This document shows positions 23,143-61,605 of a stretch of DNA of 64,000 bases, one piece after another (the first letter of the stretch is position 1; each line of letters starts with the position of its first letter). Source of the stretch: an uncultured Bacteroidales bacterium. Lineage in GTDB: Bacteria > Bacteroidota > Bacteroidia > Bacteroidales > FEN-979. The translations under genes and the position numbers were made by a program. Location of the stretch: positions 62,001-126,000 of the forward strand of contig CAIWXI010000030.1 of NCBI GenBank assembly GCA_903916595.1, given 5' to 3'. The notes beneath the pieces were generated by a model. It had not been told where the DNA came from, searched no databases, and worked only from the letters and a program-made list of their open reading frames with translations.

Positions 23143-23179
23143 AAAGTATGTTTAGCAAGTTGCGTCCTGCCGAAAATTT

Positions 23180-23251
23180 CACCATTTCACCATTTCACCA
23201 TTTCACCATTTCACCATTTCACCATTTCACCATTTCACCATTTCACCATTT
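23180..23251. repeat. Nine tandem copies of an 8-base unit
   Basis: CACCATTT is repeated nine times without mismatch over 72 bases. The right part lies inside rlmN, so the array encodes the last residues (GEMVKW) and the TGA stop of RlmN on the minus strand. The rest fills the gap before ade. It has no spacers and is not a CRISPR. It belongs to the family of stop-codon-proximal arrays in this window. Confidence 0.97.
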
Positions 23252-30180: not shown

Positions 30181-30271
30181 GTTATCCGTTATCCGCTATC
30201 CGTTAATTGTACATCGTACATCGTACATCGTTCATCGTACATCGTACATCGTTCATCGTACATCGTACATC
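30181..30271. repeat. Two adjacent heptamer arrays between the sigma-54 activator and a sugar dehydrogenase
   Basis: First, GTTATCC, GTTATCC, GCTATCC (30181-30201), directly before the activator's start codon. Second, nine units at 30209-30271: GTACATC with GTTCATC at units 4 and 7. The last unit holds part of the dehydrogenase's TGA stop. The variants recur every third unit, which suggests duplication of a three-unit block. Confidence 0.95.
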
Positions 30272-43038: not shown

Positions 43039-43935
43039 ATGGCTTTTTTTATGATCAAGGAAAAACCGTTTTCAAGAAAATGGTTTCTATCGTATGGTTT
43101 TATTGTTGTCGGCTCTTTCATTCTGGCCTCTGCCTTTGTTCTTTTTTTTACACCCTATAAGATCATTCCAGGCGGCGTATATGGTATTTCCATCGTTCTC
43201 CATTACGTTCTTGGAACCCCGATCGGGATGATGGCTCTGTGCTTCGACATTCCACTCACAATCATTGGAATGAAAGTACTTGGGCCAAGGTTCGGGTTCA
43301 AAACGGTTCTGGGTTTTTCACTAACAGCCGTTTTTACAGATACCCTTACATGGCTCTGGGGATTTGAACCTCTTGTAAATGGGGATGCTTTACTGTCTTC
43401 AATATTTGGCGGATTGCTTTGCGGGCTTGGGCTCGGGCTTATATTCAGATCCAAGGCAACATCCGGAGGAAGCGATATTGTAGCCGCCATCATTGCCAAG
43501 TATACTAAATTACCGATCGGCCAGCTTATGATCATGGTGGATTCTGTAATAGTGCTCCTCGGACTATTTGTGTTCCAGGATTGGAAAATTCCTTTGTATT
43601 CGTGGATTGCAATCTTCATAACAGGCAAGGTAATCGATGGGGTCCTTGAAGGGATAAATTACGAGAAGAGTCTGTTTATTATCTCTGAAAAACACGAGGA
43701 GATTAGAGATAAAATTATCAATAACCTAAACCGGGGAGGAACAATTATTGAAGGCCAGGGTATGTTCAACATGGCCGAACGTAAGATCATATTCACCGTT
43801 GTAAGCCGCAGGGAACTTGTTATTCTCGAAGAATATATTCATCAGATCGACCCTAAAGCATTTCTTACGGTCTTTAATGCCTCGGAGATCCTTGGAGAAG
43901 GATTCAAGTCGCTGAAGGAGAAGATATCAGATTGA
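43039..43935 (+). CDS. YitT-family membrane protein (DUF161 + DUF2179)
   Basis: This 298-residue protein has five or six membrane helices in the first 190 residues, with the YitT repeat motifs FTPYKIIPGGVYGISIVLHY and SKATSGGSDIVAAI. The last 80 residues form a soluble DUF2179 domain (RGGTIIEGQGMF). Transport has been suggested for the family but the substrate is unsettled. The stop codon is the first three bases of a heptamer array. Confidence 0.9.
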   Translation: MAFFMIKEKPFSRKWFLSYGFIVVGSFILASAFVLFFTPYKIIPGGVYGISIVLHYVLGTPIGMMALCFDIPLTIIGMKVLGPRFGFKTVLGFSLTAVFTDTLTWLWGFEPLVNGDALLSSIFGGLLCGLGLGLIFRSKATSGGSDIVAAIIAKYTKLPIGQLMIMVDSVIVLLGLFVFQDWKIPLYSWIAIFITGKVIDGVLEGINYEKSLFIISEKHEEIRDKIINNLNRGGTIIEGQGMFNMAERKIIFTVVSRRELVILEEYIHQIDPKAFLTVFNASEILGEGFKSLKEKISD

Positions 43936-43981
43936 ATTTCGAATATCGAATATCGAATGTTGAATGTTGAATGTTGAACGG
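43933..43981. repeat. Seven-unit heptamer array starting at a stop codon
   Basis: Units: TGAATTT, CGAATAT, CGAATAT, CGAATGT, TGAATGT, TGAATGT, TGAACGG. The first unit begins with the YitT gene's TGA. GAATATCG (43941-43948) pairs with CGATATTC (43993-44000), so the region can also fold as a hairpin between convergent YitT and rseP genes. Confidence 0.92.
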
Positions 43982-54063: not shown

Positions 54064-54105
54064 GTAGCGGAGTAGCGAAGATCCTTATCTGTTATCTGTT
54101 ATCTG
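54064..54105. repeat. Short octamer and heptamer arrays after the BI-1 gene
   Basis: GTAGCGGA and GTAGCGAA follow directly after the TAA stop (54061-54063), then TTATCTG is repeated three times (54085-54105). It fills most of the 57-base gap before fabD. Confidence 0.85.
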
Positions 54106-60057: not shown

Positions 60058-60699
60058 ATGAAAAAATTTGCTGTAGTCCTTGCAGGATGCGGTGTTTTTG
60101 ACGGAGCCGAGATCACCGAGGCAGTCCTGACCATGCTGGCTATTGAAAAAGCCGGTGCAACGTATCATTGCTTCGCACCTGATATTTCTCAATACCATGT
60201 TATTGATCATGTGAAAGGGAAGCCTGCAGGAGAAACCCGGAACGTGCTCACCGAGTCGGCGAGAATTGCCAGGGGAGACATCAAACCTCTCAGCGACTTT
60301 AACGCCGCAGATTTCGATGCACTTATTTTTCCCGGCGGATTTGGCGCTGCCAAGAACCTATGCAGCTGGGCCTATGAAGGAGATAACGCCAGGGTAAACC
60401 CTGATGTTGAACGGGCTGTCAAAGCCATGCATGAAGCAGGAAAACCCATAGGAGCCATGTGTATTGCACCGGTGATCCTTGCAATCCTGTTCAGGGGGGC
60501 GAAACTCACCACCGGACAGGATCCTGCCTCAGCAGGGTTTATAGAAAAGAAAGGAAATATCAGCATAATAAGCGATCATGCCCAGGTTATTATCGACCCG
60601 GTGCACAAACTGTTCACAACCCCATGCTATATGCTGGATGCTAAAATGTCGCAAATTGAGGAGGGAACGCAAAATTTAGTGAAAGAAATGATAAAGTGA
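60058..60699 (+). CDS. elbB: ElbB-family glyoxalase/isoprenoid-linked DJ-1-like protein
   Basis: This 213-residue DJ-1/PfpI superfamily protein has the ElbB start VVLAGCGVFDGAEITEAVL, then ALIFPGGFGAAKNL and the nucleophile elbow Cys in IGAMCIAPVI. E. coli ElbB has glyoxalase III activity and raised lycopene yield when overproduced. Its stop codon begins a heptamer array. It converges on a GGGP synthase gene, also isoprenoid-related, but on the other strand. Confidence 0.94.
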   Translation: MKKFAVVLAGCGVFDGAEITEAVLTMLAIEKAGATYHCFAPDISQYHVIDHVKGKPAGETRNVLTESARIARGDIKPLSDFNAADFDALIFPGGFGAAKNLCSWAYEGDNARVNPDVERAVKAMHEAGKPIGAMCIAPVILAILFRGAKLTTGQDPASAGFIEKKGNISIISDHAQVIIDPVHKLFTTPCYMLDAKMSQIEEGTQNLVKEMIK

Positions 60700-60769
60700 T
60701 GCAGGATGCGAGATGCGAGATGACTGGGTGACTAGGTTACTGGGTGACTGGGTGACTGGGTGACTGGTT
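60697..60769. repeat. Heptamer then octamer arrays after elbB
   Basis: From the elbB TGA: GATGCAG, GATGCGA, GATGCGA (60698-60718), then six octamers of GACTGGGT type (60722-60769: GACTGGGT, GACTAGGT, TACTGGGT, GACTGGGT, GACTGGGT, GACTGGTT). GATGCAGGATGCG (60698-60710) is the exact reverse complement of CGCATCCTGCATC at 60807-60819 and 60856-60868. Confidence 0.93.
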
Positions 60770-60802
60770 ACAAGTATCCCGGTTACCGGCGCGAAGCGCA
60801 TT

Positions 60803-60879
60803 ATCCCGCATCCTGCATCCTGTATCCTGTATCCTGTATCCTGTATCTCTTATCCCGCATCCTGCATCCTGTATCCTGA
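60803..60879. repeat. Eleven-unit heptamer array running into the GGGP synthase gene
   Basis: Units ATCCCGC, ATCCTGC, ATCCTGT (x4), ATCTCTT, ATCCCGC, ATCCTGC, ATCCTGT, ATCCTGA. The series ATCCCGC-ATCCTGC-ATCCTGT occurs twice, so the array has a higher-order repeat. Its right part lies in the GGGP synthase gene and encodes the end GYRMQDAG and the stop. Confidence 0.93.
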
Positions 60880-61605
60880 CATCAGACTTCCGATATCTGA
60901 TATCAGCCCGGGATTCTTCTCAATCGCATTTCCGATCACGATCACGTCAGCTCCGGCTTTCAGGGCCGCGGAGGCTTTTTCAACAGTGGAAATCCCCCCG
61001 CCAACGATCAGGGGTACAGACGTTTGCTTTTTAACCTGCTGTATTATTTCAGCAGGTACCGGGTTTAAGGCTCCTGAACCTGCATCCATATAAATCACTT
61101 TCAGCCCAAGCATTTCACCTGCAAGAGCGGTGCAAACAGCAATATCGGGTTTGTCTGATGGGATGGGCAAAGTGTTGCTGATATAGGAAACTGATGTAGG
61201 CCTTCCGCTGTCGATCAGCATATAAGCCGTGGGAATGATCTCAAGTTTGCTGGCTTTCAGCAGGGCCGCGGATTCCACATGCCTGCCGATGAGCAGATCG
61301 GGATTCCTGCCTGAAATCAGCGAAAGCAGCAAAATGCCATGGGCATTCGGAAAAATCTGCAGGCTGCTCCCCGGAAAGAGAATCACCGGAATATCAGAAT
61401 TGTCGCGAAGCAACTGTATCTGAGCTACACCATCTCCATGCATCAAAAGGCTGCCACCGAAAAAGAAATAGTCCACCCCTGCCTGTGTGGCAAGCCCTGC
61501 AAGTCTTTTAAGAGAGGCCGGAGTAGATTTATCCGGGTCCACGAGGACTGCAAATTTCTTTTTGCCTCCTGAGGCTCCCTTTATCAGTTTATCCAAAAAT
61601 TTCAT
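60850..61605 (-). CDS. Geranylgeranylglyceryl/heptaprenylglyceryl phosphate synthase family protein
   Basis: This 251-residue TIM-barrel protein is of the archaeal-type GGGPS/PcrB family. It has FAVLVDPDKSTPASLKRL, DYFFFGGSLLM, VILFPGSSLQI, IPTAYMLIDSG, the glycerol-1-phosphate and prenyl-site segment VIYMDAGSGALNPV, and LIVGGGISTVEKA. The family joins a polyprenyl chain to glycerol-1-phosphate by an ether bond. Group II enzymes are known in some Bacteroidota. The last residues and stop are encoded by a heptamer array. It follows metF by eight bases. Confidence 0.93.
   Translation of the reverse strand: MKFLDKLIKGASGGKKKFAVLVDPDKSTPASLKRLAGLATQAGVDYFFFGGSLLMHGDGVAQIQLLRDNSDIPVILFPGSSLQIFPNAHGILLLSLISGRNPDLLIGRHVESAALLKASKLEIIPTAYMLIDSGRPTSVSYISNTLPIPSDKPDIAVCTALAGEMLGLKVIYMDAGSGALNPVPAEIIQQVKKQTSVPLIVGGGISTVEKASAALKAGADVIVIGNAIEKNPGLISDIGSLMSGYRMQDAG

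Follow-up and report, generated by a model that had tools for sequence, protein, structure and literature searches.

The repeats between the convergent genes elbB and GGGPS represent one copy of an element made of short repeats that is scattered genome-wide, and arrays of this kind tend to face away from the nearest gene. The junction, which lies in a window of 64,000 nt (the whole stretch of DNA that was analysed), is probably one instance of a population of tandem arrays with 7- or 8-nt units that spread, lengthen and are quickly replaced between species.

Results

Structure of the elbB/GGGPS junction

At the junction (Table 1), the TGA stop codon of elbB (60697-60699) overlaps the first repeat unit, and GATGCAGGATGCG, which occurs a single time in the region (60698-60710), has two bases in common with it. 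The reverse complement, CGCATCCTGCATC, is present in two copies (60807-60819 and 60856-60868), the latter residing within the reading frame of GGGPS, whose TAA stop codon is located at 60850-60852; the final residues of this protein, GYRMQDAG, are encoded by the array. Period 7 was called by TRF at 60705-60722 and 60802-60878. The purine-rich strand of the heptamer and octamer arrays next to elbB is directed away from this gene, and the array on the opposite side is directed away from GGGPS, into the coding end of which it extends. An earlier note on this DNA had claimed that the same heptamer stands at both gene ends, once as GATGCAGGATGCG at the elbB stop and twice as CGCATCCTGCATC at the GGGPS end, that both genes enter this unit in gene sense, and that a different, octamer array (TGACTGGG, 60721-60767) separates the arms, all of which was confirmed. 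A perfect inverted repeat of at least 13 bases arose in 16 of 1000 dinucleotide-preserving shuffles of the 183-base region, and thus the inverted 13-mers are just mildly improbable, given the repetitive make-up of the region; a better measure of them is the genome as a whole. The junction has tandem units of about 7 nt, with the unit dispersed at many loci, as is typical of the heptameric simple-repeat kind (STRR or long SSR), of which its octamer array is an extension.

Table 1. Coordinates of the junction features in the window and of related sites elsewhere.
Feature	Position	Strand	Remarks
elbB (glyoxalase ElbB), 213 aa	60058..60699	+	NF008747 ElbB, 291.7 bits
Heptamer array GATGCAG GATGCGA GATGCGA GAT	60698..60721	+	Arm of inverted repeats I1-I4
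Octamer array TGACTGGG, 5.9 copies	60721..60767	+	TRF
Mini-hairpin ACCGGCGCGAAGCGCATTATCC	60785..60806	no strand	Copy of dispersed core ATCGGCGCGAAGCGCCTTATCC
Heptamer array GATRCRG (ATCCYGY on +), 11 copies, one irregular unit	60802..60878	-	TRF
GGGPS-family gene	60850..61605	-	NF003198 GGGPS family, 267.3 bits (NCBIfam)
AAATGGTG-TTCGGCGAAGCCGT sites	C31:160356, C49:57951, C49:113748, C42:32020		Own genome; last two are converted held-out offsets
PolA, with putative linker	L106 14552-17554		In frame, repeat-coded, species-specific
CysS, with putative linker	L120 8362-9993		In frame, repeat-coded, species-specific
MurF-Alr, with putative linker	L070 16847-19513		In frame, repeat-coded, species-specific

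Abundance of the arrays

The genome comprises 3,786,092 bases in 166 contigs and is 97.8% complete. We sampled 1,147,324 bases (30%), consisting of a first sample of 753,571 and a held-out sample of 393,753 bases, in which genes were called with a home-made ORF scorer. Since the sampled contigs were picked largely for appearing in repeat hits, array densities are biased upward and represent upper figures. Allowing at most one mismatch, ATCCTGCATCCTG has 632 matches in the genome (348 + 284) and its reversed control has none; near-copies in seven congeners number 42-128. Exact copies of the 13-mer number 30 + 43 in the 1,147,324 sampled bases, and two units of the octamer TGACTGGG give 20 matches in this genome, again with none for the reversed control. 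Periods of 7 or 8 account for 155 of the 239 TRF rows in the first 753,571 bases, and arrays of 7- or 8-base units add up to 219 in the sampled 1,147,324 bases, 154 of them in the first sample (counted from at least 2.5 copies) and 65 in the held-out one. The families of the first sample include AAATGGTG (44 arrays), ACATCGT (18), AGGATGC (18) and AGATATC (11), among others. Array-bearing spacers in this sample were 15/88 of the convergent, 62/386 of the codirectional and 12/85 of the divergent ones, and hence the arrays have no preference for spacers bounded by 3' ends alone. Elsewhere in the window, arrays are located at 23176-23251 (ATTTCACC, 9.5 copies), 30209-30271 (GTACATC, 9 copies), 43932-43978 (TTGAATG) and 54085-54105 (TTATCTG).

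Polarity and opposed pairs

The labels used for polarity, ATG-bearing strand and purine-rich strand, were picked after the first sample. Where a single strand of the unit contains ATG, the sense-to-antisense ratio of that strand within 30 nt of a gene was 30:7 (stops) and 4:12 (starts) in the first sample (Fisher 3e-4), and 15:4 and 1:4, respectively, in the held-out sample (p 0.028). Scored by the purine-rich strand, the present genome yielded 50:14 at stops and 8:21 at starts (p 6e-6), the held-out sample 19:6 and 3:5 (2x2 p 0.08), and relatives with other units 10:0 and 1:5 (p 0.0014). Over entire codirectional spacers the ratio was 42:30 and not significant (p 0.19), so that the bias in orientation concerns the edge near the gene. 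Arrays of the ACGATGT family at stops were unbiased in the first sample (5:6) and numbered 5:0 in the held-out sample. The counts at stops favour the sense orientation to some extent, because ORF calling absorbs stop-free antisense arrays at gene ends and leaves stop-bearing sense arrays.

Opposed pairs are counted independently of gene calls. Arrays of the same family at most 200 nt apart faced each other ('-> <-') in ten cases in the first sample, the elbB/GGGPS junction being one of them, and in two in the held-out sample, and never faced apart ('<- ->'); five families were covered in the former and four in the latter, and same-family neighbours with the same direction numbered 21 and 5. 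Accordingly, of the set-direction growth raised in the earlier note as one origin of the arrangement, the polarity holds genome-wide (12:0 pairs), while the growth itself is what we infer.

Several causes of this polarity were rejected. Array-free spacers have a purine fraction of 0.500 after stops and 0.495 before starts, which argues against a purine bias of the spacers. If ATG were avoided upstream of genes, this could account for the start side here and not for the stop side, and would leave GGGAATC of Xanthomonas unexplained, a unit that in our reading is devoid of ATG on either strand. Microhomology alone is likewise insufficient: after array-free stops, AAAT outnumbers ATTT just 1.5-fold (163 against 111 at 739 stops), while 29:3 was observed, and before 773 starts the numbers are 406 and 316, while 4:13 was observed.

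Array edges

The edge-phase analysis covered all arrays of three families and 12 of the 16 of the AGATATC family. In the main family, the 5' edge is in one phase (AAATGGTG) in 47/63 arrays and the 3' edge in one phase (GGTGAAAT) in 29/63 (p 0.002 for the difference), and the first bases of AAATGGTG arrays are often provided by a TAA stop codon. Of 110 array edges at 3' ends, 40 lie at most 5 nt from the stop, compared with 10 of 100 edges at 5' ends. The phase-locked 5' edge suggests joining or priming via a short match. Four AAATGGTG arrays terminate immediately at TTCGGCGAAGCCGT, a further mini-hairpin, whose loop is GAA (Table 1).

Arrays inside genes

Arrays inside called ORFs make up 46 of the 154 in the first sample. 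Units of the GGATG type are stop-free in all frames; 26/39 of their arrays lie 60 nt or more within a called gene, compared with 1/63 of the AAATGGTG arrays. Ten proteins chosen from the 46 cases were scanned for family matches, and in eight of them, PolA, MurG, CysS, an FAD oxidoreductase, MurF-Alr, a NuoC/D-like protein, NadE and a short-chain dehydrogenase, single-frame matches flank at least one array on both sides; the PabB-like and the FGE-sulfatase proteins had no two-sided family matches around the array. In the genus alignment, the same PolA linker is occupied by different repeat peptides in the congeners, and the CysS site has an MQDAG-like remnant in four of seven.

Turnover across the genus

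The genus set consists of eight genomes, the present one and the congeners G001-G007. The convergent pair elbB and GGGPS is kept in all eight, and the junctions, which span 18-239 nt from stop to stop, are not alignable as one sequence. G002 and G004 carry units resembling AGCGAAA at both ends, in gene sense, and G007 has them at the GGGPS end; apparent decayed heptamers are found at both ends in G001, and G005 has no obvious repeat array. The C-terminus of GGGPS ends earlier in G003 (ISEILK), G005 (ISELLK) and G006 (IREIVR), and is encoded by own repeats in G002, G004 and G007. The earlier note would have abandoned a shared 3' structure if related genomes had the same gene pair and no related repeat; the comparison came out mixed, with such repeats absent in G005 and another repeat, arranged alike, in G002 and G004. 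The octamer family TGAAATGG / TGAAATGGTGAAATGG numbers 949 in the present genome, 0-8 in the seven congeners and up to 90 in the taxonomic family, indicating expansion in the own lineage. In smaller samples of relatives, array density ranged from 1.7 to 13 per 100 kb, with different units (AAAAGCG, for example). The junctions of G003 (L075), G005 (L074) and G006 (L076) share a longer interspersed sequence similar to GCGAAGCATCTCACACAAGCTGCCTTGGCTTCAAGGAGCG, which looks like a separate repeat family.

Folding of the junction and candidate mobile components

The predicted RNA of the junction has a minimum free energy of -85.6 kcal/mol (z -5.3) on one strand and -72.3 (z -4.5) on the other; thus, the 13-base inverted repeats can indeed form a large stem, as had been proposed. 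In the genus comparison, z on the two strands was -4.9/-3.3 for the present genome, -3.6/-3.0 for G001, -2.5/-3.5 for G002, -1.7/-1.3 for G003, -6.5/-5.3 for G004, -0.1/-0.6 for G005, -2.3/-2.9 for G006 and -1.1/-1.0 for G007, a range showing that some genomes of the genus lack a strong structure. Terminator-like sites with a G+C-rich stem and a T run numbered zero in 60550-61000 (0.2 expected), and Rfam gave no match at the junction up to E 1.

The core ATCGGCGCGAAGCGCCTTATCC, the version shared by most copies, was found with at most two mismatches in 7/8 genus genomes, with three copies in the present one. Among 20 loci, 16 were inspected, corresponding to 13 distinct sites, and at nine of these the hairpin was judged by eye to sit among '-> <-' arrays, inside the arm of the pyrimidine strand. 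Hairpins with a GAA triloop and a stem of at least 6 were 11 of 352 on the + strand and not outstanding. A Y1_Tnp (IS200-like) gene is single-copy and syntenic in all eight genomes (L222-L229), and the 200-260 nt inspected on its flanks contain no array or repeat. REP or REPIN elements with a RAYT would be expected to have a conserved palindrome of 20-40 nt in high copy, compared with three copies of the core here, and to flank the Y1 transposase, where the inspected stretch had no array. A reverse transcriptase of the RVT_1 type was rejected as agent, as RVT_1 has no match in this genome and matches in two of the eight genus genomes.

Discussion

The arrays are most likely self-spreading simple repeats that grow in one direction from short matches. 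Read from static draft genomes, most of them metagenome-assembled, growth and copying might proceed as follows. An array would begin at a DNA 3' end from a short match, e.g. AAAT or GAT, and would then grow 5'->3' via slippage or template switching; fold-back copying of the array could yield an opposed arm with the same unit. Copies would settle at harmless places, i.e. spacers, gene edges and, for stop-free units, tolerant linkers in enzymes. The elbB/GGGPS site would accordingly have two heptamer arms that face each other across the octamer array and the mini-hairpin. Facing arrays must pair, and the junction stem therefore follows from the polarity; it is best read as a by-product, and the site can be explained without it, although the long stem may incidentally affect the ends of both transcripts.

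The shared 3' structure suggested by the earlier note may be taken in two ways. As a device specific to elbB and GGGPS it found no support in the genus comparison: regulation of this gene pair was discarded as lead reading because the congeners keep the pair in 8/8 genomes and change the junction into non-homologous sequence, and because the arrays have no preference for convergent spacers; nothing found here indicates that the repeats serve these two genes in particular. As a functional bidirectional structure, in which a stem ends or protects both messages and the sequence is free as long as pairing is kept, a 3' role is possible as judged from the folds, and we regard it as unlikely. Strong stems of different sequence in the present genome, G004, G001 and G002 speak for it, as do gene-sense arms at both ends in the present genome, G002 and G004, where the equal unit could reflect selection for structure. 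However, the strong stem is absent in G005 and G007 and weak in G003, neither terminator-like sites (0, with 0.2 expected) nor an Rfam match up to E 1 accompany it, convergent spacers hold no excess of arrays (15/88, with 12/85 for divergent ones), and '<- ->' pairs would fold equally well, yet none occurs.

The presence of the core hairpin in seven of eight genomes and of one Y1_Tnp gene in each, the '-> <-' setting at 9/13 sites and phase-locked edges that resemble a fixed cleavage position might be explained by a mobile palindromic element, array, mini-hairpin and opposed array being moved jointly by a transposase, perhaps Y1 (IS200/RAYT-like). This is very unlikely, as the flanks of the Y1 gene (200-260 nt) are free of arrays and repeats, the arm units vary between copies, and three cores stand against 219 sampled arrays. 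That replication slippage acted independently on the two sides, starting from chance seeds, with equal units due to genome-wide word usage, is already disfavoured and highly improbable in our view. In many bacteria, no long simple repeats are more common than heptamers (Mrazek 2007, cited in the introduction of PMC4679880), and an inverted 13-mer does turn up in 16/1000 shuffles; slippage at random seeds leaves unexplained, however, why the same unit occurs at hundreds of loci, and also the lineage-specific burst (949 versus 0-8), the 12:0 pairs and the phase lock. A bolder proposal, which we consider quite unlikely, is that a directional process copies purine-rich units onto DNA 3' ends by a 3-4-base match, away from genes, with subsequent fold-back or rejoining giving '-> <-' arms, and does so with unrelated units across species and phyla, in a manner comparable to the addition of repeats at chromosome ends; a single event of this sort would then have left the elbB/GGGPS junction as its fossil.

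The putative linkers in PolA, MurF-Alr, CysS, MurG and NadE are made of repeats, with an own insert in each species, and the spread of simple repeats through coding genes thereby becomes testable via strain comparison. The open-licence full texts searched included no paper on 7/8-nt arrays in essential genes of Bacteroidales, and no precedent was found there for mixed 7- and 8-nt families, fast turnover and in-frame units in essential enzymes. Rickettsia palindromic elements are dispersed repeats that reside in frame within essential protein genes and are long conserved palindromes; the in-frame insertion is alike, whereas the units described here are simple 7/8-nt tandem ones. Heptanucleotide arrays of another phylum are dispersed and also occur inside a functional RNase P RNA gene, and are not known to have insertions in coding frames; the dispersed heptanucleotides are alike, while units and phylum differ. 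Heptamer arrays are on record from several phyla, with no mechanism attached to them; the many unit families of the genus studied here, together with its species-specific bursts, directional rule and locked edges, place constraints on the origin of such arrays.

The heptamer-array kind as such is already known, as evident from PMC4679880 and PMC4692102. The former describes TAACTGA direct repeats as intergenic heptamer arrays in Beggiatoaceae, Cyanobacteria and some Bacteroidetes, the latter having other heptamers in the same spacers and relatives without arrays; in Beggiatoaceae the repeats mostly reside directly upstream of starts in forward orientation. Our arrays resemble them as intergenic heptamer arrays, Bacteroidetes included, and differ in the unit and in that the ATG-bearing strand is mostly antisense before starts. 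The heptamers GGGAATC and GGGGAYT of Xanthomonas and Nostoc are, according to PMC4692102, genome-dispersed and near genes, preferentially on the coding strand just past stops, which some of them overlap, and on the non-coding strand shortly before starts, with few between divergent genes; each species has one G4-forming unit, about 90% of the repeats are intergenic, and they are stable between two Xanthomonas. The array polarity observed here is that of these heptamers (PMC4692102). In contrast to what is described there, many 7- and 8-nt families coexist in one genome here and turn over fast, many arrays are intragenic and in frame, and divergent spacers are not depleted.
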